Shown one piece after another: positions 25,448-39,730 of a DNA stretch of 64,000 bases (within the stretch, counting starts at the first letter, position 1; every line of letters starts with the position of its first letter). The stretch lies in contig NZ_CP009920.1 in assembly GCF_000832985.1 (NCBI RefSeq), forward strand, positions 434,001 through 498,000. Direction: 5' to 3'. This DNA comes from Priestia megaterium NBRC 15308 = ATCC 14581. GTDB lineage: Bacteria > Bacillota > Bacilli > Bacillales > Bacillaceae_H. The position numbers and the translations under genes were made by a program. The notes beneath the pieces are model-generated. The model did not search any database. It was given only the letters and a program-made list of their open reading frames with translations, and was not told the origin of the DNA.

Positions 25448-26725
25448 TCAACCGACTTGTTTCTCAGGTGAATAACTGCTCTTGTTTTGTTTTTTTTCAC
25501 CTGGTAATTTCATAAATATCATCAAAATAGCACTAACAAAATACAAACCAGCAAATATCCACATGACTCCGTGTACACCCATGCTACCAATGAATGTTCC
25601 TACAATTGCAGGTGCAATAAAGTAAGACATTCCAGCCCCAAAACTTACAATAGCCATAGCTGAGCCTTTCTTTTCGGGTGCTAATGAACTTACTAGAGCA
25701 GAGAGTGGTACATAACCACATAGAACGATTCCAAAAATTATGCCTACCACAGTTAATGCCCAGAAATTATGCCCGAACATTTGAGGAGTATAAAGCATAA
25801 CCAGAGTCATTACACCGCAACCGACACTGCCAATCCACATAATTGTCTTTCGCCAACCTAACCATTTGTCACTGATATAAGGAATGACTAAGTTAAAAGA
25901 GATATTGGCCACCCACATAGTTCCCCATACTTGTAACCATTCTTCTGTACTGTATCCATATTCAGAGGACAAGTATAGAGGGAAAAAGATTGGAAGAGCA
26001 CCTACGCCGGTGGAGTTTATTATACGAACAACTCCGCCTATTGCGATTTTTGGCTTTTCAATACAAATAGTTAGTCCACTGAGTAAACTTTTCAATTTTT
26101 CCTTGCCATTACCCTCACGTTCATGTACTTGGCCTTTTACAACAACAACTCCAATTAATCCACCGATTAACACCCATACGACCGCACTCCACATTAATCC
26201 AATATATCCGATTTTCGGAATCATATAAGCTGGAAAATAACTTCCAACAACATAAAGACCGCCACTCCATGCTGCCCAAAATAGCCCTATTGCCGTAGCT
26301 AAAATACGTTCAGGACTGCGATACGTAACCCAAACTAAAAACGAATAGCAAAATAAAGGATAACCAAATCCTCGAATAGCATAAGTCGGTAACATAACTG
26401 CATAATTATGCGGTTTTAGACCATATTCAATAAAAAGAATTTGACCTACTAACCAGATAACCAAGCCTGCTATCATAACCTTTCTTGGTCCCCATGCTTC
26501 TGTAAGGACACCCGAAAAGTAGGAGGCGATTGCTAATATAGCTCCGTATGCTGCAAAGAGAGTAGAAGATTGTTGAACGGTTAAGCCATGTTCAATAAGA
26601 TATGGTGAAAGCCAACCATGTTCGAGACCATCTCCTACCATAAAAATTAGAGTTGCGATATAGCCCCAAATCATAGCTGATGGAAGACCTTTGGTGTTTT
26701 GCTCTCTTTTTGAAATCGCATTCAT
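25448..26725 (-). CDS. MFS polyol permease, RbtT/DalT/CsbX family
   Basis: This 425-residue transporter starts WGYIATLIFMVGDGLEHGWL then SPYL, the signature of the RbtT/DalT/CsbX group, which includes ribitol and arabinitol permeases and CsbX. Motif A (EAWGPRKVMIAG) follows helix 2. GAGGTG precedes the ATG at 26725; a GTG three codons earlier is less likely. It is the last gene of a minus-strand cluster of isomerases and dehydrogenases and is probably the uptake system for its sugar or polyol, though an inverted repeat lies between it and the next gene. Confidence 0.87.
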   Translation of the reverse strand: MNAISKREQNTKGLPSAMIWGYIATLIFMVGDGLEHGWLSPYLIEHGLTVQQSSTLFAAYGAILAIASYFSGVLTEAWGPRKVMIAGLVIWLVGQILFIEYGLKPHNYAVMLPTYAIRGFGYPLFCYSFLVWVTYRSPERILATAIGLFWAAWSGGLYVVGSYFPAYMIPKIGYIGLMWSAVVWVLIGGLIGVVVVKGQVHEREGNGKEKLKSLLSGLTICIEKPKIAIGGVVRIINSTGVGALPIFFPLYLSSEYGYSTEEWLQVWGTMWVANISFNLVIPYISDKWLGWRKTIMWIGSVGCGVMTLVMLYTPQMFGHNFWALTVVGIIFGIVLCGYVPLSALVSSLAPEKKGSAMAIVSFGAGMSYFIAPAIVGTFIGSMGVHGVMWIFAGLYFVSAILMIFMKLPGEKKQNKSSYSPEKQVG

Positions 26726-26798
26726 TTTAATCACCTCAAAATTATATATTTAACAATGCTGATAGTCACATTTACTCATTAGATGGTTCTCTTCAATG

Positions 26799-26854: not shown

Positions 26855-27826
26855 TTACGCCCACCACATTTCAGTTAATTGTTCTTTAAATTGTGCGCCT
26901 TTTAATAAAGAGATGGCCTTACTTAATCCTTCATCTAACGAAGCTAGCATATCTTCATGCTCAATAGATATCACATAGTCATATCCTACCGCACGAAGCG
27001 CACTCACCATATCTTTCCATACTTTTTCGTTTTGCCCATATCCTACGGATCTAAATGTCCACGAACGATTCAAAGTATCACTGTAATGTTTTGTATCTAA
27101 TACCCCATTAACACTAATGTTTGCCTGATCCAAATACGTATCTTTTGCATGAAAATGAAAAATAGCCTCTTCTCGACCAAGTTTTTTAATGGCTTCTACT
27201 GGATTAATCCCTTGCCAAATCAAATGGCTTGGATCAAAATTAGCTCCAATACTTGGCCCAGCATGCTCTCTTAATTTCAAGAGAGTTTCAGGGTTATACA
27301 CAACAAACCCCGGGTGCATTTCAAGCGCAATTTGATGGATACCGTGTGACTCTGCAAATTTCACTTCCTCTTTCCAGTAAGGAATGACTACTTCATTCCA
27401 CTGCCAATCTAGGATTTGTGTATATTCCTGTGGCCAAGAGCAGGTTACCCAGTTCGGATTTTTGGCACCTGGGTGGTCACCTGGGCACCCAGAAAATCCA
27501 TTAATCACCGGCACTTCTAAACGTTCAGCTAATAAAACTGTTTTTCTCCACACGTCATGAGCCTTTTTGGCAACCATCTTATTTGGATGCAGTAAATTGC
27601 CATGACAACTTAGACCACTTATTGTAAGTCCTCTACTTGTAAGGGCAGCTTGAAATCTTTTTAATTTCTCTGGGCTCTCTAGTAATTCATCGGGATTACA
27701 ATGACTGTTTCCTGGATAATTGCCTGTGCCCAATTCAACGGCCTCTACACCCATTTCACATAGTTTGTCCAGCATCTCTTCAAAAGGCAAGTTTTGATAA
27801 AGAACTGTAAACACCCCTAATTTCAT
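26855..27826 (-). CDS. Sugar phosphate isomerase/epimerase family (AP endonuclease 2-like TIM barrel)
   Basis: This 323-residue TIM barrel has the metal-binding set of the xylose-isomerase-like superfamily: Glu in IALEMHPGFV, Asp in GANFDPSHLIWQG, His in FHFHAKDT and Glu in ISIEHEDML. Such proteins isomerise or epimerise keto-sugars, or act like IolE/IolI. GGAGG lies 7 nt before the ATG at 27826, which overlaps the upstream dehydrogenase stop (ATGA), so the two are translationally coupled. The pairing suggests that the dehydrogenase product is its substrate. Confidence 0.85.
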   Translation of the reverse strand: MKLGVFTVLYQNLPFEEMLDKLCEMGVEAVELGTGNYPGNSHCNPDELLESPEKLKRFQAALTSRGLTISGLSCHGNLLHPNKMVAKKAHDVWRKTVLLAERLEVPVINGFSGCPGDHPGAKNPNWVTCSWPQEYTQILDWQWNEVVIPYWKEEVKFAESHGIHQIALEMHPGFVVYNPETLLKLREHAGPSIGANFDPSHLIWQGINPVEAIKKLGREEAIFHFHAKDTYLDQANISVNGVLDTKHYSDTLNRSWTFRSVGYGQNEKVWKDMVSALRAVGYDYVISIEHEDMLASLDEGLSKAISLLKGAQFKEQLTEMWWA

Positions 27827-29001
27827 GCACGTACCTCCTGCTTTACCTTCACTTTCATCCATTTTTGTTGTTCATGACTTGCCAAAATGGCGTCGGTAAT
27901 GCACATGGACATATGTCCATCTTCAAATGTCGCGAAAGTCGCTTTATCACTTAAAGGATTTTTACCTTCTCGAATAAAGGTATAGAAATTCAACAATCCA
28001 TTTTTTAATGCATCTGGCCAGCCTTCATTATGGCCCCCCGGATGATGAATGGACGATTTTGCTTCAGAATTAAATAAAGTAGGATCTGCAAGAAGAGTTT
28101 GATTTGGTTGATCTCGATAGCCAATCCACAGCTTTTCTGGTTCTTCTTGATTCCAAAAAGCAGAATTTTGACTGCAAGCGATTTCGAAGCTTAGTCTATT
28201 TTTTCGCCCTGCACTTACTTGAGACACAGTAAATAAGCCTTTTACCCCGTCTTCAAAACGTACAAGAACAGATGCATAGTCTTCTGTGTTAATCGGAACA
28301 TCTTCATATGCTTCTTCTTGTCCTTTTTGTCCCCCAAAAGTAGATCCTTGAGAAGTAGATTTTTTTCTTATTGGTATAACAGTTGCTAAATCAGCAAAAA
28401 CTTCGACGATTTTTTTACCTGTTACATATTGAACTGTATCACACCAATGAGAACCGATATCCGCTACCGCTCGTGATTTCCCTCCGACTTCAGGAGCTAA
28501 ACGCCAATTAAAGTCTGTTTCGAACAATAACCAGTCTTGTAAATAACTTCCGTGCACTAAGTTGACTTTCCCTAACTCACCGTTTCTGATCATTGTTTCT
28601 AATTGTTTTACAATCGGAAATTGGCGGTAGTTAAAGTTTACGCCATGTACGACCTGGTGCTCTTTAGCTAATTTCAATAGCTCGGCTGATTCTTCACTAG
28701 ACATAGCTAATGGTTTCTCCGATAACACATGTTTGCCTGCTTGAATAATTTCTTTATTAATTTGAAAGTGAAGGTGATTAGGTGTACAGTTATGAACAAC
28801 TTGAATCTCACTGTCTTTTAACATGTCACGATAATCCCCATAAGCTTTCGGAATTCCAAGTTCAACCGCTTTTTGTTCTGCTACTTCCTGGCCATGTTCT
28901 GCTAATCCAACTACTTCTACAAAACCGAGTCTTCTGATAGCCTCAATATGAGTAGGTCCAATAAACCCTGTCCCAATAACTCCAACTTTTATTTTTTCCA
29001 T
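27823..29001 (-). CDS. Gfo/Idh/MocA family NAD(P)-dependent sugar dehydrogenase
   Basis: The 392-residue protein has the Rossmann start KVGVIGTGFIGPTHIEAI and the family motif LSEKPLAMS with the catalytic-region Lys, then a beta-sheet substrate domain (NFNYRQFPIVKQLE; DWLLFETDFNWRL; ADIGSHWCDTVQYV with the typical Asp and His). Relatives oxidise inositol, glucose or 3-hydroxy positions of glycosides. The ATG at 29001 has GGTGGAG upstream; a GTG four codons earlier overlaps that site and is rejected. A second member lies just upstream. Confidence 0.88.
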   Translation of the reverse strand: MEKIKVGVIGTGFIGPTHIEAIRRLGFVEVVGLAEHGQEVAEQKAVELGIPKAYGDYRDMLKDSEIQVVHNCTPNHLHFQINKEIIQAGKHVLSEKPLAMSSEESAELLKLAKEHQVVHGVNFNYRQFPIVKQLETMIRNGELGKVNLVHGSYLQDWLLFETDFNWRLAPEVGGKSRAVADIGSHWCDTVQYVTGKKIVEVFADLATVIPIRKKSTSQGSTFGGQKGQEEAYEDVPINTEDYASVLVRFEDGVKGLFTVSQVSAGRKNRLSFEIACSQNSAFWNQEEPEKLWIGYRDQPNQTLLADPTLFNSEAKSSIHHPGGHNEGWPDALKNGLLNFYTFIREGKNPLSDKATFATFEDGHMSMCITDAILASHEQQKWMKVKVKQEVRA

Positions 29002-29188
29002 TTCTTTCTCCACCTTAATAAACTGTATTTTCCATGATTTCTTTTACTTACGTAGTAGCTAAAAAGAGAATTAAAACCTTTATATATAGCCGTTTGCTGA
29101 CTTGCCTCTATTGATCTGAATCACAAATCAACAACTCTATTTCTAATAAAGGCTAGTCTACTAGGACTAGCCACTACTAAACTATTGC

Positions 29189-30370
29189 TTAAGCTTTCAC
29201 TAAATTTTCTGTAAGATTAACCCATACACCTTTTTCAGCTGATTCAAGGATAGCATCTGAAATAACGGCGATTTGATAACCGTCTTCAAAATCTGGTGAT
29301 ACGCTTGTATCTTCAGCAATTGATTTGAGGAAATCATATGTTTCAATAATTTTTGTTTCCCCGTACCCAATTCCTAATGCTGGGATTGGCCATAGACCTT
29401 CTCCATATGGATGTGCAGGTCCTGTATAAACCGTTCTGAATCCGCGGCTATCACTTGGATCATCGGAGAAACATACTTGAAGCTCATCACGGCGTTCATA
29501 GTTAAAGTATAATGAACCTTTCTCTCCGTGAATTTCAAATGTTAAGAAGTTGTTGCGACCCCAGGCATTACGAGTCGCTTCAATGCTTCCAACTGCGCCG
29601 TTATCAAATTTAATTAAAGTTGAAAACTCATCGTCTACATCAACTTTACCTTTTGGTACATCAGTTTCTGCTTTTACAGTTCCTAGTTTATCTACCCCGC
29701 CACTTTGAATCGGTCTTTCACCAATCCATGTCTTTGCAATAGCCATTACTTCTGAAATGTCACCCACAAGATATCTTGCAAAGTCAATCACATGTGTTCC
29801 GATATCACCTAATGCACCTGAACCAGCTCGCTCTTTTTGGAAGCGCCATGATAAAGGCGAGTTAGGATCCGCAGACCAGTCTTGCAGGTATGTGCCTCGG
29901 AAGTTTAAAATCTTTCCGATTCTTCCTTCCTCAATATATTTTTTTGCTAGAGCAACGGCTGGTGTTCTGCGATAGTTAAATGCGACCATATGTTTAACAC
30001 CTGCTTCTTTTACTGCGTCAAGCATTGTTTTTGCTTCTGCTGCAGTTCGTGCTAACGGTTTTTCTGAAATGATATGTTTACCTGCTTTGGCAGCTGCAAT
30101 GGCAATCTCTGCATGAGAGTCATTTGGTGTTACAATATCAATAATATCAATTTCAGGATCTTCTACTACCTTTCTCCAATCAGATGAATAGTTTTCAAAT
30201 CCTAAACGTTCTGCTGCATCTTTTGCTAACTCTTCGGTCACATCAACCACTGTGTGTCGTTGAGGAACTGCTGGTGCCGGCCAAAAAAACATTGGCATAC
30301 CTGCATAAGCAAGTGCATGCGCTTTCCCCATAAATCCTCCGCCAATCATACCTACGTTTAACTTTTTCAT
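29189..30370 (-). CDS. Gfo/Idh/MocA family NAD(P)-dependent sugar dehydrogenase
   Basis: This 393-residue paralogue opens LNVGMIGGGFMGKAHALAYA and has ISEKPLARTA, FNYRRTPAVALAKKYI, DWSADPNSPLSWRF and GDIGTHVIDFARYLVGDI, so all the family landmarks are there. Two such dehydrogenases with two isomerases recall pathways that oxidise a sugar, epimerise or cleave the keto form and reduce it again, as in 3-keto-glycoside metabolism; that is inference. GGAGGAG precedes the ATG. It lies between the upstream isomerase gene and the second dehydrogenase. Confidence 0.88.
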   Translation of the reverse strand: MKKLNVGMIGGGFMGKAHALAYAGMPMFFWPAPAVPQRHTVVDVTEELAKDAAERLGFENYSSDWRKVVEDPEIDIIDIVTPNDSHAEIAIAAAKAGKHIISEKPLARTAAEAKTMLDAVKEAGVKHMVAFNYRRTPAVALAKKYIEEGRIGKILNFRGTYLQDWSADPNSPLSWRFQKERAGSGALGDIGTHVIDFARYLVGDISEVMAIAKTWIGERPIQSGGVDKLGTVKAETDVPKGKVDVDDEFSTLIKFDNGAVGSIEATRNAWGRNNFLTFEIHGEKGSLYFNYERRDELQVCFSDDPSDSRGFRTVYTGPAHPYGEGLWPIPALGIGYGETKIIETYDFLKSIAEDTSVSPDFEDGYQIAVISDAILESAEKGVWVNLTENLVKA

Positions 30371-30501: not shown

Positions 30502-31323
30502 TTAAGACTTATTTGCCGTTTCAAAACTTAATAAGAAGTTAAAACTGATTTCTGCTCCTTTTTTCGGATCATTATAGCTATCTAATTCTACTGTAAGCCA
30601 TTCATCATATCCAATTTCATCCAGAACTTGGATCATTTGATCAAACTTTTGATGTCCTTCTCCTAAAGGAAGAAATTCTCCATTATAATAATCTTTGAAA
30701 TGAATATATTTAATGCGATCTGCATATTTTTTAATTACTTCTACCGGATTCCCTCCACCTGCTTCGATATGCGCTGTATCCGGACATAAATTAATCGTTG
30801 TTAGTGCCATTAATTTGTCCAGCTGGTCTGGGGCCTCTACGTTTGTTCCTAAATGCGGGTGATAACTTGGAATAAGATTATATTTCTCTGCAATTACTAC
30901 TACTCGATTAAGAGCATTGCCTAAATCAGTGTAATCGCTTTCTAAAATACCATTCGCACGGATAGCTCCTCCGCCAATTACTAGATGCTTCGCTCCTAGT
31001 TCAGAAGCAAGAGCTGCAACCTCTTCAATTTTTAATAATTCTTCTTCCAAAATATCTGGAAAAATAAAATTCCCTCCAGTGTAAACTCCAATAAAGTCTA
31101 AAGAGTAACGGTTCAGCAATGCTCTAAATTCTTCTTTTCTATCTTTAAATTCCATTAGATTTCCGTCAAACATTTCAAATCCTTTATATCCAACTTCTGC
31201 AATATCCTTTAAAGCTTCTTCTGTTGATCCATTTGCAAGGTAATAAAGGTCTTTTATCGAAGTGACTCCGGCAGGATGCCCTACTACCCCGCCCCACGTA
31301 TTTGTCTGATATCCTAGTTTCAT
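30502..31323 (-). CDS. Sugar phosphate isomerase/epimerase family (IolE/MocC-like TIM barrel)
   Basis: This 273-residue TIM barrel has the landmarks SYHPHLGTNVE, LCPDTAHIEAGGGNPVEVI, IKYIHFKDYYNGEF and LTVELDSYNDP, close to the IolE/MocC branch (inosose dehydratase-like). It is the first structural gene of the operon after the LacI gene. GGAGAG precedes the ATG. Its promoter region (31324-31676) holds two perfect LacI/cre-type palindromes. Confidence 0.85.
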   Translation of the reverse strand: MKLGYQTNTWGGVVGHPAGVTSIKDLYYLANGSTEEALKDIAEVGYKGFEMFDGNLMEFKDRKEEFRALLNRYSLDFIGVYTGGNFIFPDILEEELLKIEEVAALASELGAKHLVIGGGAIRANGILESDYTDLGNALNRVVVIAEKYNLIPSYHPHLGTNVEAPDQLDKLMALTTINLCPDTAHIEAGGGNPVEVIKKYADRIKYIHFKDYYNGEFLPLGEGHQKFDQMIQVLDEIGYDEWLTVELDSYNDPKKGAEISFNFLLSFETANKS

Positions 31324-31433: not shown

Positions 31434-31447
31434 TGTAATCGATTACA
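31434..31447. promoter_or_regulatory. LacI-type operator / cre, site 1
   Basis: TGTAATCGATTACA is a perfect palindrome that also fits the CcpA cre consensus at every position, 111 bp upstream of the first structural gene. Confidence 0.7.
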
Positions 31448-31596: not shown

Positions 31597-31610
31597 TGTA
31601 ATCGATTACA
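31597..31610. promoter_or_regulatory. LacI-type operator / cre, site 2
   Basis: An identical copy of TGTAATCGATTACA, close behind the lacI-type stop. Confidence 0.7.
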
Positions 31611-31676: not shown

Positions 31677-32678
31677 TTATGAAAGATGTGTTGAGCATGA
31701 ATCACGTATGATAAGCTGATCTTCCATTAAATATTGATGTCTTTCAATTTCTTCCTTATTCATCAACTTTATAAGTAATTTCATTGCCATCGTGCCCATC
31801 TCAAAAGCTGGCTGTGAGATGGTTGTAAGAGCCGGTTTGAAAATAGATGAAAATTTTATATCATCAAATCCTACTACGGAAATATCATGTGGAACACTTA
31901 ATCCTTTTGAAGAAATAGCATTTATAGCTCCAAATGCCATCTCATCATTTGCTGCAAACACGGCTGTTGGAGGATGATTAAGATCCAAAAATTGATTCAT
32001 TATATTAAAACCGCTTTCATAAGAAAAATCACCCTCCTGCACTAGAATGGACTCAACTGTCAGGTTGTATCGTGTCATTGTCTGATAAAATCCTTTTAAT
32101 CGATCCTGGCCTATCACTCCATCTAGGGGACCTGATATAAATCCTATTCTTTTATGTCCCAGCTTAACCAAATATTCTGTTGCTTTTTGAGCCCCGCTGA
32201 TATTATTAATAGAAACGGTGGGGATGGCTGAACCTTCTATATATTCACATGCCAAAACTACAGGATATTTGAGAGCCATTTCCTCAATGTTCTTCGATTT
32301 CATTCTCGCCGTTAGTAAAACCATTCCATCAGCTTTTTTTTGGAGAAGTATATTTAAATACCCATTTTCTCTTTCCAAATCATTGCCCGTATCCCCAAGC
32401 AGAACTTGATATCCGTTTATGACGGCTACAGACTCAATTCCTCTTAATACCTTCGAAAAAAAAGGATTTGTTATATCAGGTACAATGACTAGAATGGTTT
32501 TGGTTTCTAATGTTCTTAACTGGCGAGCTAATGCATTTGGCTGATAGTTTAATTCTTTAATTACTTGTAATACTTTCTCAGTCGTTTCTTCCGTTACAGT
32601 GTTAGGTTTACTTAGCACTCTTGACACTGTAGCAGTTGAAACATTTGCTTTTTTTGCTACATCTATTATTCGCACCAT
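31677..32678 (-). CDS. LacI/GalR-family transcriptional repressor
   Basis: The 333-residue protein starts with the LacI HTH and hinge helix (VRIIDVAKKANVSTATVSRV, then YQPNALARQL) followed by a PBP1-type sugar-binding domain (ILVIVPDITNPFFSKVLRGI; GHKRIGFISGPLDG; AVFAANDEMAFGAI; SVVGFDDI). It should repress the downstream isomerase-dehydrogenase operon and itself, since the same palindrome precedes both. The effector is probably the sugar, or its phosphate, used by that operon. Confidence 0.92.
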   Translation of the reverse strand: MVRIIDVAKKANVSTATVSRVLSKPNTVTEETTEKVLQVIKELNYQPNALARQLRTLETKTILVIVPDITNPFFSKVLRGIESVAVINGYQVLLGDTGNDLERENGYLNILLQKKADGMVLLTARMKSKNIEEMALKYPVVLACEYIEGSAIPTVSINNISGAQKATEYLVKLGHKRIGFISGPLDGVIGQDRLKGFYQTMTRYNLTVESILVQEGDFSYESGFNIMNQFLDLNHPPTAVFAANDEMAFGAINAISSKGLSVPHDISVVGFDDIKFSSIFKPALTTISQPAFEMGTMAMKLLIKLMNKEEIERHQYLMEDQLIIRDSCSTHLS

Positions 32679-32717
32679 TTTACGACTCTCTTTTCTTGTT
32701 CTTCTCTATAACAGAAT

Positions 32718-32731
32718 TGTAATCGCATACA
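32718..32731. promoter_or_regulatory. LacI-type operator / cre, site 3 (autoregulation)
   Basis: TGTAATCGCATACA lies 40 bp before the lacI-type start and differs from sites 1 and 2 in two positions. It keeps the CG centre and both TGTAA/ACA ends. Confidence 0.6.
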
Positions 32732-32836
32732 AAAATATTGTCTAATTGGATTCAGACAACATTTTCTGAGGTTCAAACTCTTTAAAAATCCTTTTAAGCG
32801 TCGTTTTTATCCATATAAACAAAAAAACAACAAATT

Positions 32837-32863
32837 AAAAAAACTCAGCACTTATTGCTGAGC
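32837..32863 (-). terminator. Terminator of the two-component operon
   Basis: CTCAGCA/TGCTGAG hairpin; on the minus strand it is followed by a T7 run, directly after the response regulator stop. Confidence 0.8.
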
Positions 32864-32871
32864 TCTATGTT

Positions 32872-33582
32872 TTATAATAATTTGTACCTTTGCAGATTGT
32901 CTACTTTATGCTTGGAAATCCTTGCAGTTTCCTTATAATCTTTAAAATAGGCTTTATACATTTGACCCGTTGCTTCAATTCTTGTTAAAAGTTCCACATT
33001 TATAATATAAGATCTATGAGATATCATAAACCTAGAATCAACGGCACCTTCCAAGCTAGTTAAAGCTTCATTTGTCTCGAATTTACCATTTTTAGTATGA
33101 ATAACAGATTTCCGATCAAGTCTTTCAATAAAGATAATTTCTTCTAATGGAATAAACATTATATTTTTCTGCTGTTTAATCATTAAATCCTTTTTAAATG
33201 AATGTTCTTTATCGACTAGTGAAATAGACACTTGGGAAGCTCTCTCTAAAGCACCATATAAACGATTTCTATCAATTGGCTTTAAAATATAGTCTACTGC
33301 CTTTACGTTAAATGCCTCAAGTGCATAATTATCATGACCAGTAATAAAAATAACTTGTAAAGTCGGGAAAAGTTCTTTACATGCTTTAACCGCTTCCATC
33401 CCATTCAATAAGGGCATTCCGATATCGACTAAAGCAAGATCCGGTTTTTCTTTCGTAACATAGTGTATCAATTCTTCACCGTTGGCGGCCTCTCCAACAA
33501 TTTTATATTTGGATAAACTCCCAATAAAGTACCTTAACAATTTTCTTGAGGTAACATCATCGTCTGCGATCAATACTTTCAT
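32872..33582 (-). CDS. LytTR-type response regulator
   Basis: This 236-residue protein has a receiver domain (MKVLIADDDVTSRKLLRYFI, phospho-acceptor Asp53 in LALVDIGMP, then FITGHD and LKPIDR) and a C-terminal LytTR DNA-binding domain (NIMFIPLEEIIFIERLDRKS; FMISHRSYIINVELLTRIEA). The frame extends to 33678 but GGGGGAA and the receiver start favour the ATG at 33582. This overlaps the kinase 3' end by 26 bp, so the two are coupled. It should receive phosphate from that kinase and act at promoters with LytTR direct repeats, which I did not locate. Confidence 0.9.
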   Translation of the reverse strand: MKVLIADDDVTSRKLLRYFIGSLSKYKIVGEAANGEELIHYVTKEKPDLALVDIGMPLLNGMEAVKACKELFPTLQVIFITGHDNYALEAFNVKAVDYILKPIDRNRLYGALERASQVSISLVDKEHSFKKDLMIKQQKNIMFIPLEEIIFIERLDRKSVIHTKNGKFETNEALTSLEGAVDSRFMISHRSYIINVELLTRIEATGQMYKAYFKDYKETARISKHKVDNLQRYKLL

Positions 33583-36544
33583 CTTGTTGTTCCCCCTTTT
33601 CCCTAGCGTTTCTTGATTTCGCAACACTTTGAATACTATCTGGAGCATCTTCATTATAAACGAGCTGCCAAGCATCAATTACATTTTCTTTCATTACTTT
33701 TAGAGACGGAACGGCTACATAGGGTGGCGCTTGTTTTCCAAGTAGGGCATACCCTGCTAGAATCGCTTCGGCGACTCCTTGCTGGTATGGTAGCTGGGCA
33801 CCTAGTCCTTTAATAGGTCCATCCTGTGCAATTTCCAAGGCGACGTTCATACCCAAATCCATTGTCGTAATGACTAAATTGCTTTTTTTTGCAGTACGAG
33901 TTGCCCTCAAAGCTCCTTCAGCCGGTACATCCCATACAACAAAAATACCATTTAAATCCTGATGTTCAGCAATCATACCGGATGCCACTTTTTCTCCATC
34001 ATTCGAATCAGTAATTCCCCTGCGATCGACAATTTGAATGTCAGGGTACCTTTCCTTTATAGTTTTTTCAAATGCTTCCGTTCTTTGTTTGGTTGCAAAA
34101 AAATCAGCATCATGGTAAATAATCCCGACCTTACCCTTTCTATCTAATTTCTCAGCCATGATATTAGCCGATTCAATGCCATTTCCATAATTGTCAGCAG
34201 AAACAATACTTACATAATCTTTCCCATGCTGCAAACCATTCGGTGTATTGTCCATAAACACCAGCTTGACACCAGCCTGGGCTGCTTTTTGATATACACT
34301 TGCAGTTAATTCTGGATCAACTGGAATGCTCACCAGGATATCCGGTTTTTTGGCTAAAATGCTTTCAATGTCAGCTACTTGCTTTTTCCATTTAAATTCT
34401 GCATTTGTCACGGCTACTACCTCAATGCCCATTTTCTCAAAAGTAGTTTGCATTCCTTCCAATTGAGACCTTGACCAATCACTTCCAGTATAATGCATAG
34501 CAATAGCAGCCTTATATTTCTTTTTCTTAATTTTTTTTAGCTCTTTCAAAGATAAACGAAGTGTTTTTGCTGAGGCAGCTTCCTCGCCATGTGGTCCCGT
34601 ACTTAAAATTTTATGATCTGGAATATTTTGATTAATTGTATTGTTTAGCGTTTCACTTAGGATTGTCAAAAACTCTTGTACATGAATGGGCTTTGTTAAA
34701 TAGTTATCAAATCCTTTATCTAATGTATATTGAATATCCTTTGGCATTGCATTCGCACTTACAGCGATGACAGCAATATCTTTCGTTTCTTTGCCTGCTT
34801 TTAAAATTTCAAATACTTCATATCCATTAATATCTGGGAGGTTAATATCAAGAAGAACCAAATCTATTTTTTCGTTTGCTACAATTTCTATTCCTTCTTT
34901 TCCTGTACGAGCTGATAAGAGCGTATAGGAAGGCTGCGATTTAATGATGTTACTTACTAAGTGCAAGTTGGATTCGTTATCTTCAATATATAGCAAACGA
35001 TAGTTATCTTCCTTCCTATTATTTGTTGGAGGAAATTCAGTTTGTTCACCCCATTGTATGACAGTCTTTGAATCATTTGGAAGAGGAAGGCTAAAACAAA
35101 ACTCACTTCCTGTTCCTTTATTGCTTGTTACATTAATATCCCCACCCATTAGATGCACCAGCTGTTTAACTAAAGATAACCCAATCCCTGTACCTTCTTC
35201 TTTTGTATTTTCGATTCGATAAAATGGAACAAACACTTTAGTATATTCCTCTACAGAAAAACCTACACCTGTATCTACGATATGAATGTACTGCTTATTC
35301 TCTTGTAAACGACAGAAAACAATGACTTTTCCATTTTCTTGATTGTATTTAATAGCATTATCAAGTAGATTTAGCAATATTTGTTTAAGACGTATAGGAT
35401 CAGCAAGAACCATCATATCTTCCCATTGATCCAGTTGGCTATAAATACTAATATTCTTCTTCTTAGCCAATGGTTGTACAATATTGATACATTCCTTGAT
35501 GACAGTTAAAAGATGAACTTCCTCTACAGAAATCTTTAAATTTCCCGTTTCTATTCTTGACACGTCTAAAATATCATTAATTAAACTTAATAAATGGCTT
35601 CCTCCACTTAAAATCTCCTGTACAAAATCACGCTGTTGTTCATTTAAAGATTCATCCATCTCCAATAATTGAGCAAAACCCAGAATTCCATTCAACGGAG
35701 TACGCAGTTCATGACTCATCTTAGACAAAAAACTTGATTTGGCCATGTTCACTTTTTCAGCTTCTTCTTTTGCCTGAACAATAACTCTTTCCATTTTTTT
35801 TTGTTCTGTGATATCCTCAAACTCCCACAAGTAGCCTACAAAATTATTTTTCTCATTTAAGGGAAAACAATTGTAGCGTAGTGTCATACTTGTATCTATT
35901 TTAATTTCTTTCGTAATTTTTGTTAGTTTTTCTGTATTTCCGAGCTTAATTTTATTAATTTCTTTATCAAAAAGGTAATGTAAATCCGAAGCGTGCATCC
36001 CAATATGGCAATCAATTTCACCCTTCAACTGGAAAAGTTCATAAAATTTCCTATTTAAGAGCCTTATTTTTTTATTGCAATCTGTTACTGCAATCCCACT
36101 ATCTAACCAATCAATCAAACTACGCTGGAATGCATAGGAATTCATTAATTTTTGTTCTTGTTCTTTTTGAAGAATGTCCTCTTCCATAATCTTTTTGTTA
36201 GTAATGTCCACACAAGTTCCGACTACTTCAGCTACTTTATCCTTATGAAATAAAGGTCTTAAATAAATTACATAATAAATACCTCTAAATTTACCTTCAT
36301 ATTCAATGTACTGTCCTGCCCATGCTTTTTTGTAATAACTGTTTAGCAAATTGGCAGTGTCAATATCATCCCAATACAAATCATGAAGCGTCTTTCCGAC
36401 GATATCCTCTCGATTAACCCCCAACGTATACAGTAATTCTCCCTCGGCAAAAGTATGAATAAACTCGTTACTTCTTTGTACAAACTTAAAAATCATCCCG
36501 GTATCAGTAAAGCCTGGCTGTGAAATATATCTGAAATCCTTCAT
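33557..36544 (-). CDS. Hybrid histidine kinase with C-terminal sugar-binding-protein domain (PAS-PAS-HisKA-HATPase-REC-PBP1)
   Basis: This 995-residue protein has two PAS regions (about 15-115 and 140-250), HisKA with phospho-acceptor His278 (KMSHELRTPLNG), a HATPase domain (LLDNAIKY at 393-400, DTGVGF at 424-429, GTGIGLSL at 451-458) and a receiver domain with Asp566 (LVLLDINLP) and Lys618. After a short linker, residues about 675-960 form a type 1 periplasmic-binding fold like ribose-type ABC binding proteins (YKAAIAMHYTGSDWSRSQLE; ILVSIPVDPELTASVYQKAA; FVVWDVPAEGALRATRTA). I see no signal peptide or membrane helix, so the sugar-binding part should be in the cytoplasm. The overlapping LytTR regulator is its likely output. 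Confidence 0.88.
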   Translation of the reverse strand: MKDFRYISQPGFTDTGMIFKFVQRSNEFIHTFAEGELLYTLGVNREDIVGKTLHDLYWDDIDTANLLNSYYKKAWAGQYIEYEGKFRGIYYVIYLRPLFHKDKVAEVVGTCVDITNKKIMEEDILQKEQEQKLMNSYAFQRSLIDWLDSGIAVTDCNKKIRLLNRKFYELFQLKGEIDCHIGMHASDLHYLFDKEINKIKLGNTEKLTKITKEIKIDTSMTLRYNCFPLNEKNNFVGYLWEFEDITEQKKMERVIVQAKEEAEKVNMAKSSFLSKMSHELRTPLNGILGFAQLLEMDESLNEQQRDFVQEILSGGSHLLSLINDILDVSRIETGNLKISVEEVHLLTVIKECINIVQPLAKKKNISIYSQLDQWEDMMVLADPIRLKQILLNLLDNAIKYNQENGKVIVFCRLQENKQYIHIVDTGVGFSVEEYTKVFVPFYRIENTKEEGTGIGLSLVKQLVHLMGGDINVTSNKGTGSEFCFSLPLPNDSKTVIQWGEQTEFPPTNNRKEDNYRLLYIEDNESNLHLVSNIIKSQPSYTLLSARTGKEGIEIVANEKIDLVLLDINLPDINGYEVFEILKAGKETKDIAVIAVSANAMPKDIQYTLDKGFDNYLTKPIHVQEFLTILSETLNNTINQNIPDHKILSTGPHGEEAASAKTLRLSLKELKKIKKKKYKAAIAMHYTGSDWSRSQLEGMQTTFEKMGIEVVAVTNAEFKWKKQVADIESILAKKPDILVSIPVDPELTASVYQKAAQAGVKLVFMDNTPNGLQHGKDYVSIVSADNYGNGIESANIMAEKLDRKGKVGIIYHDADFFATKQRTEAFEKTIKERYPDIQIVDRRGITDSNDGEKVASGMIAEHQDLNGIFVVWDVPAEGALRATRTAKKSNLVITTMDLGMNVALEIAQDGPIKGLGAQLPYQQGVAEAILAGYALLGKQAPPYVAVPSLKVMKENVIDAWQLVYNEDAPDSIQSVAKSRNAREKGEQQDESIDRRR

Positions 36545-37414: not shown

Positions 37415-37660
37415 ATGGATATTCAAAAATTAGCCGATCATGAGTCATTGGATCTACATGAAGTTATTAATTTTAAAACCCTTTGCTTAGCGAAATCAAA
37501 ACTAATGCAAGGACTTGTATTTGATGATGATTTGAGAGCATTGATGAAAAAAGATGTTGAACAATCGATACAAGCGCTGGGAGAATTACAGGCAGTTTAT
37601 CAACGTGCACCTTTTGAAGCCCCTGTTCCTCAAAACCGGCCAACACCAATAATCAATTGA
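37415..37660 (+). CDS. yraG: Spore coat CotF-related small protein (YraG-like)
   Basis: This 81-residue helical protein ([40 protein letters not shown]) resembles YraG, the N-terminal half of CotF-type coat proteins. AAAGGAGG precedes the ATG. It starts a five-gene set in the same order as the B. subtilis yraG-yraF-adhB-yraE-yraD block, which is expressed during sporulation. Orthology rests on order and size as well as sequence. It is probably incorporated into, or placed under, the spore coat. Confidence 0.7.
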
Positions 37661-37676
37661 AAAGGAGGTAAATTCA

Positions 37677-38045
37677 GTGAATCATGACTATTTAGATCCT
37701 ATAAACTCGCTACACGTACCAGAGCTCGCAGATACTACATTTGCGATGGACTTTCTTCTTCGTGCCAAGGAAGGTGTTCGCAATATCGCAGTCGCATTAA
37801 CGGAGTCCGCATCACCTGATGTTAGAACCCTCTTACGAGAACAGTTAATGCAAGGGATTGCCATGCACCAAGAAATTACAGAACTAATGATTAGTAAAAA
37901 ATGGTTCCATCCATACGAATTAAGTGAACAATATCAACTAGACCAACTCTCTGCCAACAATACATTGATGATTGGCAAAATGAATTTATTTCCTGTTGAG
38001 ACCAACAGAAAAGGTCTGTTTGACCGAACACCTGATGAACACTAA
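37677..38045 (+). CDS. yraF: Spore coat CotF-family protein (YraF-like)
   Basis: This 122-residue protein shows the CotF core: [60 protein letters not shown]. The start is GTG with a perfect AAAGGAGG 7 nt upstream. It is 17 bp after the yraG-like gene and 19 bp before adhB. The paralogue at 39425 is clearly related (AAKSGVRNYAMAVTEAGTPE), so the operon holds two copies of each small coat gene type flanking the dehydrogenase. Confidence 0.75.
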
Positions 38046-38063
38046 CACTGGAGGATATCTATC

Positions 38064-39200
38064 ATGAAGGCAGTAACGTATCAAGGTATTAAAAATGTTG
38101 TAGTCAAAGAAGTTCCAGATCCAAAGATTCAAAAACGAGATGACATGATTATTAAAGTAACCAGTACAGCTATATGCGGGTCTGATTTACATTTAATTCA
38201 TGGCATGATTCCTAACCTGCAAGAAAACTATGTGATTGGCCATGAACCAATGGGAATCGTCGAAGAAGTTGGTCCAGATGTGACGAAAGTAAAAAAGGGA
38301 GATCGTGTTATTATTCCTTTTAATATAGCATGCGGTGAATGTCTTTACTGTAAAAACCATTTGGAAAGCCAATGTGATAATTCCAATGATAATGGTGATA
38401 TGGGTGCCTATTTCGGATATTCTGGTACGACGGGTGGTTATCCAGGTGGACAAGCTGAATATTTAAGAGTTCCGTTTGCCAACTTTACTCATTTCAAAAT
38501 TCCAGAGACTTGTGAAGAACCAGATGAAAAGTTAGCAGTTATTGCCGATGCAATGACTACTGGTTATTGGAGTGTTGACAATGCAGGCGTAAAGGGTGGA
38601 GATACAGTTATTGTTCTTGGCTGTGGTCCGGTTGGCCTTTTTGCTCAAAAATTCTGTTGGCTAAAAGGAGCAAAGCGTGTCATTGCCGTAGATTATGTAG
38701 ATTATCGTTTGCAACACGCCAAACGTACCAACAAAGTTGAAATTGTAAATTTCGCACATTTTGAAAATGCAGGAATGCATTTGAAAGAAATGACGAAGGG
38801 CGGCGCTGATGTTGTCATCGATGCAGTTGGTATGGACGGTAAAATGACTGATATGGAGTTCCTTGCGAGTGGAATGAAACTGCAGGGCGGAGCATTTGGT
38901 GCGTTTATCATGGCTTCACAAGCAGTACGTAAAGGCGGGACAATCCAAGTTACAGGCGTTTACGGTGGCAAATATAATGGATTCCCAATGGGAGATATTA
39001 TGAACCGAAACGTCAATATTCGCTCTGGACAAGCACCTGTAATTCACTATATGCCATATATGTTTGAATTAGTTTCGACCGGAAAAATTGATCCAGGAGA
39101 TGTCGTGAGTCATGTACTTCCACTTAGTGAAGCAAAGCGTGGCTATGAGATTTTTGACACCAAAATGGATAATTGTATAAAAGTCTTGTTAAAACCTTGA
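38064..39200 (+). CDS. adhB: Zinc-dependent alcohol dehydrogenase (AdhB-like)
   Basis: This 378-residue medium-chain dehydrogenase has the catalytic zinc ligands in AICGSDLHLIHG and GHEPMG, the structural zinc Cys cluster CGECLYCKNHLESQC, and the cofactor motif VIVLGCGPVGLFAQ followed by AVDYVDYR, whose Asp favours NAD. It resembles the formaldehyde-dehydrogenase-like branch. Position between CotF-type coat genes matches B. subtilis adhB. It should be made in the mother cell during sporulation; its physiological substrate is unknown. Confidence 0.87.
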   Translation: MKAVTYQGIKNVVVKEVPDPKIQKRDDMIIKVTSTAICGSDLHLIHGMIPNLQENYVIGHEPMGIVEEVGPDVTKVKKGDRVIIPFNIACGECLYCKNHLESQCDNSNDNGDMGAYFGYSGTTGGYPGGQAEYLRVPFANFTHFKIPETCEEPDEKLAVIADAMTTGYWSVDNAGVKGGDTVIVLGCGPVGLFAQKFCWLKGAKRVIAVDYVDYRLQHAKRTNKVEIVNFAHFENAGMHLKEMTKGGADVVIDAVGMDGKMTDMEFLASGMKLQGGAFGAFIMASQAVRKGGTIQVTGVYGGKYNGFPMGDIMNRNVNIRSGQAPVIHYMPYMFELVSTGKIDPGDVVSHVLPLSEAKRGYEIFDTKMDNCIKVLLKP

Positions 39201-39424: not shown

Positions 39425-39730
39425 ATGAACATGAATCCAATTATTGAAAATTTAACTGGCATGAATGCCCTATCGGATCAAGTGGTTGCAATGGATTTAT
39501 TGATTGCAGCTAAAAGTGGAGTTAGAAATTATGCCATGGCAGTTACGGAGGCCGGAACGCCTGAAATTAAAGAAATGCTCACTCGCCATTTAGTGGAAGC
39601 TCTTGATATGCATGAACAAATTTCTGCATACATGGTGGAAAAAGGATGGTACCATGCTTGGGATACAAATGAACAAATCACTTTAGATTTAAATAATATC
39701 GATACAGCGTTGAACTTACCTACTCTATAA
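39425..39730 (+). CDS. yraD: Spore coat CotF-family protein (YraD-like)
   Basis: This 101-residue protein has the CotF core (MDLLIAAKSGVRNYAMAVTE, EAGTPEIKEMLTRHLVEALD, MHEQISAYMVEKGWYHAWDT). GAGGAG precedes two ATGs, at 39425 (4 nt) and 39431 (10 nt), so the start could be either. It is the last gene of the operon; an AGGAGCAGTTTA/TAAACTGTTCCT hairpin follows at 39741-39776. Confidence 0.75.
   Translation: MNMNPIIENLTGMNALSDQVVAMDLLIAAKSGVRNYAMAVTEAGTPEIKEMLTRHLVEALDMHEQISAYMVEKGWYHAWDTNEQITLDLNNIDTALNLPTL

Follow-up and report, generated by a model that had tools for sequence, protein, structure and literature searches.

A soluble hybrid histidine kinase with a transporter-type sugar-binding domain, a candidate cytoplasmic sensor in a levoglucosan gene cluster of Priestia megaterium

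In signal transduction systems of the XylFII-LytS and LuxP-LuxQ types, a binding protein outside the cell is paired with a membrane-spanning kinase. The ribose-type binding fold is also used inside the cell, where it serves LacI-family repressors as a cytoplasmic sugar sensor. A third arrangement is that of the hybrid kinases BvgS and EvgS, which carry periplasmic Venus-flytrap domains of the PBPb type and a histidine phosphotransfer (HPt) domain in their chain (PMC8534201). Here we describe a hybrid histidine kinase (HK) encoded in a 64,000-nucleotide stretch of the genome of Priestia megaterium NBRC 15308 = ATCC 14581 (contig NZ_CP009920.1, positions 434,001 to 498,000; hereafter the window), which carries a ribose-type binding domain behind its receiver (REC) in a chain free of membrane segments and is linked to genes for the catabolism of levoglucosan. 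We consider it fairly probable that this kinase is a cytoplasmic sensor of levoglucosan or a close relative, and that it acts through a LytTR response regulator on an array of repeats at the promoter of a lacI-type gene.

The kinase gene lies on the minus strand, the plus-strand reading of 33557-36544 being full of stops (Table 1). By its catalytic marks, namely the phospho-acceptor histidine, the HATPase boxes and the aspartate and lysine of the receiver, its product is a hybrid HK as far as sequence can tell, and the equivalents of His278, Asp566 and Lys618 are kept in 10 of 10 proteins with the same fusion. A preliminary description, made from the letters of the window alone, had placed a binding fold C-terminal to PAS-PAS-HisKA-HATPase-REC, and Pfam returns this same order. 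The fold matches Peripla_BP_4 at residues 680-934 (E 8.4e-42; 143.9 bits, the Pfam cut-off being 35.1 bits), covering positions 2-253 of the 258 in the model and hence its full length. When compared with the sequences in the PDB, the domain has 44 matches at E <= 1e-5, the best of which is 2ioy (E 3.2e-18). By sequence, these matches identify the C-terminal domain as a complete ribose-type (type I) binding-protein domain of two lobes. The ribose-type fold seen earlier stands, with its span redrawn from residues 675-960 or so to about 640-976.

The preliminary description had also seen no signal peptide or membrane helix in this chain, and hydropathy agrees. Kyte-Doolittle means over 19 residues peak at 1.17 in the window kinase and at no more than 1.34 across the 10 fused proteins, below all five lipoprotein or membrane-kinase controls (1.85-2.89), and by this measure neither a membrane helix nor a signal peptide is found in any of the 10. 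Nor does hydropathy reveal a hidden helix or signal between REC and the binding domain. Because the binding domain sits behind REC in a soluble chain, its ligand would be read in the cytoplasm, which supports the earlier proposal of a sugar read there beside the receiver. The opposite view, in which the domain lies outside the cell or is exported by an unseen route and reads extracellular sugar, draws on its kinship with lipoproteins (a lipobox pattern is present in 28 of the 31 lipoprotein-type binding proteins compared below). We regard it as extremely improbable in light of the hydropathy of the 10 proteins, the position of the domain after REC in one chain, and the occurrence of similar domains on DNA-binding LacI proteins. 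The fused domain does not qualify as an ABC (ATP-binding cassette) transporter lipoprotein, having no signal peptide and no ABC genes found in the window cluster, and the protein is not a membrane kinase of the XylFII-LytS or LuxQ type, since hydropathy shows no membrane helix. Two kinase paralogues without the binding domain (L002, L010) have hydrophobic N-terminal regions, with a Pfam MHYT match in L010, which may mean that the fused kinase derives from a membrane sensor.

The same domain order recurs in relatives. A congener (G007) encodes the same kinase at 94% identity, and the fusion was not found in eight other members of the genus that were searched. A family-level search found it in G013, and Ammoniphilus sp. 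YIM 78166 has it too. When 397 genomes of the order were searched with the binding domain at E <= 1e-50, 31 gave matches, and nine of these have the kinase fusion. A class-wide search (398 genomes) matched 14 and added one fused case, G554, which does not differ from the Ammoniphilus locus in any of the 10,000 bases compared, and a phylum-wide search (398 genomes) matched four, with no further kinase fusion as judged by frame length. These order-, class- and phylum-wide searches overlap, and at most five candidates were scored per genome. The total is 10 genomes, in each of which Pfam confirms the order HisKA, HATPase, REC, Peripla_BP_4, and this recurrence excludes an assembly artefact joining two genes.

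Levoglucosan, or 1,6-anhydroglucose, is a sugar formed when plant matter burns. All 10 fused kinases lie near a levoglucosan (lgd) cluster that contains a LytTR gene. The LgdA-like product in the window matches, among other entries, the sequence of 6A3I, which is the levoglucosan dehydrogenase (LGDH) of Pseudarthrobacter (PMC10066097), and the levoglucosan pathway of Bacillus smithii consists of four enzymes, LgdA, LgdB1, LgdB2 and LgdC (PMC7676230). Two xylose-isomerase-like TIM barrels and a second dehydrogenase in the window fit LgdB1, LgdB2 and LgdC, putative names that we assign by family only. By sequence, the window cluster is a levoglucosan catabolic cluster with LgdA, LgdB-type and LgdC-type enzymes and a transporter. 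Import of levoglucosan is presumed to proceed through ABC or MFS (major facilitator superfamily) transporters, and oxidation at C3 is the first step (PMC7676230, PMC10066097). If the sugar is imported and then oxidised, it should be present intact in the cytoplasm. Given this cluster, the ligand of the binding domain is probably levoglucosan.

The cluster also points to the source of the domain. In 8 of the 10 fused genomes, a lipoprotein-type binding protein is encoded separately in the nearby cluster, together with ABC importer genes, the ATPase and permease being recognised by a Pfam check in G013 and by similarity in the others. The identity of the window domain to 31 separate lipoprotein-type binding proteins is 60-73%, and to that of Ammoniphilus 72%; the fused domain starts in the same sequence as the mature lipoproteins, near 'ILS-GPHGE' and 'SAKTL'. 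In a tree of 47 domains, rooted at its midpoint and taking in six of the eight LacI-fused domains discussed below, the 10 kinase-fused copies form a single clade (100/96) nested among the 31 lipoproteins, beside the Ammoniphilus lipoprotein (98/98). The simplest reading is a single fusion event with the binding protein of the lgd importer as its source. The sequences and the tree support a course in which the binding lipoprotein of a levoglucosan ABC importer would have been duplicated, lost its signal peptide and become joined behind the receiver of a soluble PAS hybrid kinase.

The sensor appears to have outlived the importer in G007 and in the window's species, where the cluster has an MFS transporter instead. 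No ABC importer was found in either cluster, whereas the other 8 of the 10 fused genomes keep one. The nearest ABC ATPase in these two genomes is 46% identical, compared with 82% between G013 and G174. No close lipoprotein was found in the window genome, where the top two other relatives of the binding domain share 25% and 22% identity with it (all 111 candidates scored), and G007 gave no other relative at E 1e-50 among the 5 of its 17 candidates that were scored and none in the 40 kb around the gene. Transport baggage is a poor explanation for a binding domain that persists without its transport partners. Both transporter kinds, ABC and MFS, occur in G013, each in its own cluster (L024, L025).

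Conservation of the domain suggests that it is functional. The 31 lipoproteins share 125 alignment columns with an invariance of 95% or more, and at 90 of these every one of the 10 fused copies has the same residue. Eleven pocket-like positions (H684, Y685, D689, W690, P741, D765, N785, R821, W871, D896 and Q917) are unchanged in 10 of 10; we take some of these to align with contacts of the ribose-binding protein and presume that the others line the cleft. Ten of them are the same in the lipoproteins, and the equivalent of W690 is Tyr in 5 of 31. For the one species pair of the window and G007, dN/dS is 0.146 in the binding domain, 0.121 in the kinase core, 0.086 in REC and 0.52 in the first PAS domain. 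These ratios indicate that the binding domain is under purifying selection, and overall it looks functional. We therefore think it quite unlikely that the domain is an accessory for dimerisation or scaffolding that senses nothing while the PAS domains provide the input. PAS domains are classical cytoplasmic sensors, and kinase relatives without the binding domain exist (L002, L010, L019), but such a role would explain neither the conserved pocket-like positions nor the purifying selection. PAS content also varies among the fused kinases (no PAS at E <= 0.001 in the G206 protein; the second PAS absent in G013) while the binding domain is constant, although the fused set is defined by this domain, so that its being always kept is partly by construction.

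A number of observations weigh against a levoglucosan sensor working as we propose, some given here and others with the repeat array below. At residue 921, all 10 fused copies have Gln where 29 of the 31 lipoproteins have Asp, Asp743 is changed in four fused copies of one family, and Gly687 is changed in 5 of 10; from these changes, affinity or ligand may have shifted. The PAS domains could carry another signal. AlphaFold2 run on 3-row alignments gave a mean pLDDT of 57 for the binding domain and 40 for the full-length kinase, so that both models are poor; they lend no support to coupling between domains and give no guide to the packing of the binding domain on REC. The substitutions, together with variation at position 811 in 3 of 10 copies, also speak for an alternative in which the same cytoplasmic device reads a different ligand, be it 3-keto-levoglucosan, cellobiosan or a cluster-related sugar after drift of the domain, and in the window's species no close transporter binding protein was found that would fix the ligand. 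We consider this alternative possible but less likely than not, as the 11 unchanged pocket-like positions, shared with the lipoproteins save for W690, stand against it.

We next consider the output of the kinase. The overlapping LytTR regulator gene of the preliminary description encodes a REC-LytTR protein and overlaps the kinase gene by 26 bp, taking its MKVLIADD start at 33582. Nine of the 10 fused genomes have a LytTR gene adjoining that of the kinase, and in G067 it lies at the far end of the cluster; this adjacency supports the REC-LytTR protein as the likely partner of the fused kinase. What does not carry over is the term phosphorelay in its strict sense: Pfam finds no HPt domain in the kinase chain or the cluster, and the two HPt hits in the genome both lie elsewhere. 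A cluster without HPt argues against a classical phosphorelay, and direct transfer from His to the LytTR protein, with the internal REC as a modulator, would be simpler, although an HPt encoded elsewhere may take part.

A DNA target for this regulator is suggested by four imperfect direct repeats that end at the -35 box of the predicted lacI promoter. The scan that gave this promoter returned 24 promoter-like sites, compared with 28.8 in shuffled sequence. All 10 fused clusters have repeat pairs upstream of lacI, and none of the 8 testable non-fused clusters does (24 non-fused regions were examined, 16 of them without a matching lacI gene; G135, one of the 8, has a truncated lacI start). In G013 the repeats are still there even though lacI is about 24 kb from the kinase and LytTR genes. 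Across the fused set, periodicity over lags 8-33 peaks at 21 (z 8.0 relative to 60 mononucleotide shuffles). Matrix scores are 16.2-26.5 in the fused clusters, each scored with its clade left out of training, versus -1.0 to 3.9 in the non-fused clusters with the full matrix, under which 2 of 2000 resampled sequences reach 16.2. With the genus of the window left out of training, the two pairs of the array are the best and third-best in the 64-kb window. Published LytTR sites consist of two repeats of 9-11 nt separated by 11-13 nt (PMC4847170), a rule that the 21-bp period fits. The proximal repeat pair is centred, by calculation, near -54 from the putative start site, close to the AgrA site at about -60 (PMC4227749). 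The four-repeat array is the likely LytTR site.

The counter-evidence on the array is threefold. Its motif was initially chosen by eye from the fused set; lags 8, 9 and 11 also have some periodicity there, with z about 5; and although the 5.7-Mb genome has a single match to the exact degenerate pattern of the first pair, at the array, a reversed control pattern likewise matches once, so that this genome-wide count is no evidence by itself. The choice by eye and the reversed control likewise favour the idea that the array is owned by another regulator and that the kinase acts elsewhere than on the neighbouring LytTR protein or the lacI promoter, and G007 and G013 each hold a second LytTR relative (41-42% identity). 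We find this unlikely, given the separation of the 10 fused from the 8 non-fused clusters when each clade is left out in turn and the fit of the period to published sites. Upstream of the first lgd gene, a search for LytTR sites by consensus gave nothing convincing. Upstream of the kinase gene, no array match is among the 12 matches listed in the whole-window scan, the sequences being otherwise inspected by eye.

One LacI-type operator covers the -10 box of the lacI promoter, and two more precede the lgd operon. Allowing up to two mismatches, there are four matches in the window versus 0.34 expected, the fourth (8245) lying elsewhere. No terminator was found between lacI and the lgd operon. 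In five other genomes (G174, G246, G267, G224 and G067) the operator core is TGTAAACGTTTAC rather than TGTAATCGATTACA, and this difference suggests that the operator drifted, perhaps along with the repressor.

We propose the following scheme for the fused kinase. Sugar would close the two-lobed binding domain, and this closure would be relayed to the adjoining REC and kinase core and alter autophosphorylation at His278. The REC-LytTR protein of the overlapping gene would receive the phosphoryl group, the internal REC serving as modulator or sink. Once phosphorylated, this regulator would bind the four repeats, spaced at 21 bp, that directly precede the lacI promoter, and would raise lacI transcription. 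The lgd operon, whose own promoter would be repressed by LacI, may also be raised by read-through from lacI, as no terminator was found between the two. The fused kinase is well supported as an object, and this mechanism is moderately supported.

A possible second capture of a related domain is seen in LacI-type repressors. In eight genomes, such a repressor (L064-L069, L085, L090) of 662-707 aa, with a helix-turn-helix and a binding fold of its own, bears an extra C-terminal binding domain that is 31-39% identical to that of the window. Six of the eight, from the order-wide set, all lie in lgd-type clusters, and the domain make-up of two of these six is supported by Pfam; the other two, from the class-wide search, were confirmed by BLAST. 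This kind of binding domain is thus carried on DNA-binding cytoplasmic proteins. The six LacI-fused domains in the tree form a separate clade on a long branch, which makes their lipoprotein origin less certain. Among the 31 genomes hit in the order-wide search, the kinase fusion (nine) and the LacI fusion (six) were not seen together among the candidates scored, at most five per genome; a rule of mutual exclusion is broken by G554 (Ammoniphilus), which has both. We lean slightly towards a more general view, in which cytoplasmic regulators would have repeatedly taken up the transporter binding protein of their own cluster, stripped of its signal peptide. A hybrid kinase would have done so once (10 genomes) and LacI-type proteins separately (8 genomes), such that an imported sugar is read with the pocket that catches it outside, and in the window's species by a sensor that has survived its importer.

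Two further observations concern neighbouring and distant DNA. Three small open reading frames in the window (37415-38045, 39425-39730), which we take to be possibly coat-protein-like, flank a gene resembling a zinc alcohol dehydrogenase (38064-39200). Separately, the annotation of a plasmid stretch of Klebsiella pneumoniae (L122) shows a levoglucosan-type cluster that comprises LacI, a binding protein and ABC genes; the plasmid is typed as conjugative, and insertion sequences lie on one side of this cluster.

Table 1. Features of the window discussed in the text, with positions counted from its first letter.
Feature	Coordinates	Strand	Basis
MFS transporter	25448..26734	-	Pfam MFS_1, E 2e-41
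Second xylose-isomerase-like TIM barrel (putative LgdB-like)	26855..27862	-	Pfam
Second Gfo/Idh/MocA dehydrogenase (putative LgdC-like)	27823..29013	-	Pfam
Levoglucosan dehydrogenase (LgdA)-like	29189..30370	-	sequence of PDB 6a3f/6a3g/6a3i/6a3j, E 5.8e-195, residues 1-387 of 393
Xylose-isomerase-like TIM barrel (putative LgdB-like)	30502..31323	-	Pfam AP_endonuc_2 and context
LacI-type operator TGTAATCGATTACA	31434..31447	.	
LacI-type operator TGTAATCGATTACA	31597..31610	.	
LacI-type regulator of lgd cluster	31677..32678	-	Pfam
Predicted lacI promoter TAGACA-17-TACAAT	32716..32744	-	consensus match only
LacI-type operator-like palindrome (2 mismatches), over -10 box of lacI promoter	32718..32731	.	
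Four imperfect direct repeats of TGTYTRAANGGA, 21-bp period; proposed LytTR binding array, lacI promoter	32745..32827	-	
Intrinsic terminator after LytTR gene	32840..32866	-	RNA fold z -2.87
REC-LytTR response regulator	32872..33582	-	Pfam E 1e-25 (REC), 4e-17 (LytTR)
Soluble hybrid histidine kinase with C-terminal sugar-binding-protein domain, 995 aa, ATG start	33557..36544	-	
Ribose-type binding-protein domain, residues 640-976, equivalent to mature part of lgd-cluster lipoprotein	33617..34627	-	Pfam Peripla_BP_4
Receiver domain, residues 518-628, Asp566, Lys618	34661..34993	-	Pfam Response_reg, E 2.9e-22
HATPase_c, residues 382-489	35078..35401	-	Pfam E 7e-27; N, G1, G2 boxes intact
HisKA, residues 268-334, phospho-acceptor His278	35543..35743	-	Pfam E 2.4e-22
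PAS 2, residues 139-177 matched	36014..36130	-	Pfam PAS_8, E 4.7e-5
PAS 1, residues 39-115	36200..36430	-	Pfam PAS_9, E 7.7e-7

If our proposals are true, they describe a general evolutionary route to intracellular sugar sensing, in which a transport receptor that sheds its signal peptide and undergoes gene fusion becomes a cytoplasmic sensor, one pathway holding two separate fusion clades. The kinase would then be the first HK to read levoglucosan, as far as the available open-licence literature shows. An odd domain order thereby becomes a signalling system that can be put to the test, with candidates named for its ligand, its partner and its DNA target, and possibly a levoglucosan biosensor for work on biomass-burning tracers and for pyrolysis-sugar engineering. 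It also raises the mechanistic question of how a kinase is controlled from the "wrong" end, by a C-terminal binding domain behind the receiver.

The lgd clusters of Bacillus smithii and Paenarthrobacter have LgdA, isomerase-like enzymes, a second dehydrogenase, a LacI protein and an ABC or MFS transporter in common with the window (PMC7676230, PMC10066097). LytTR factors are named among the neighbours of lgdA in a single sentence of PMC10066097. The term 'histidine kinase' has 0 occurrences in the main texts of these two papers, and the available portions of both describe no fused sensor for lgd clusters. More broadly, binding-protein Pfam domains serve as sensor domains of cytosolic as well as membrane signalling proteins (PMC9602780), and the accessible part of the open-licence literature yielded no description of a soluble kinase with this binding domain. 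With the XylFII-LytS and LuxP-LuxQ systems the system described here shares the succession of a ribose-type sugar-binding protein, an HK and a response regulator, but its binding domain is inside the soluble kinase chain, behind the receiver. With BvgS and EvgS it shares a hybrid kinase and binding-protein-like domains in a single chain; in contrast to those described in PMC8534201, its domain is cytoplasmic, C-terminal and of the ribose type, and there is no HPt. Lastly, the LacI family differs in that its output is an attached DNA-binding domain, whereas here it is a kinase, and the domain in the window groups with transporter lipoproteins.

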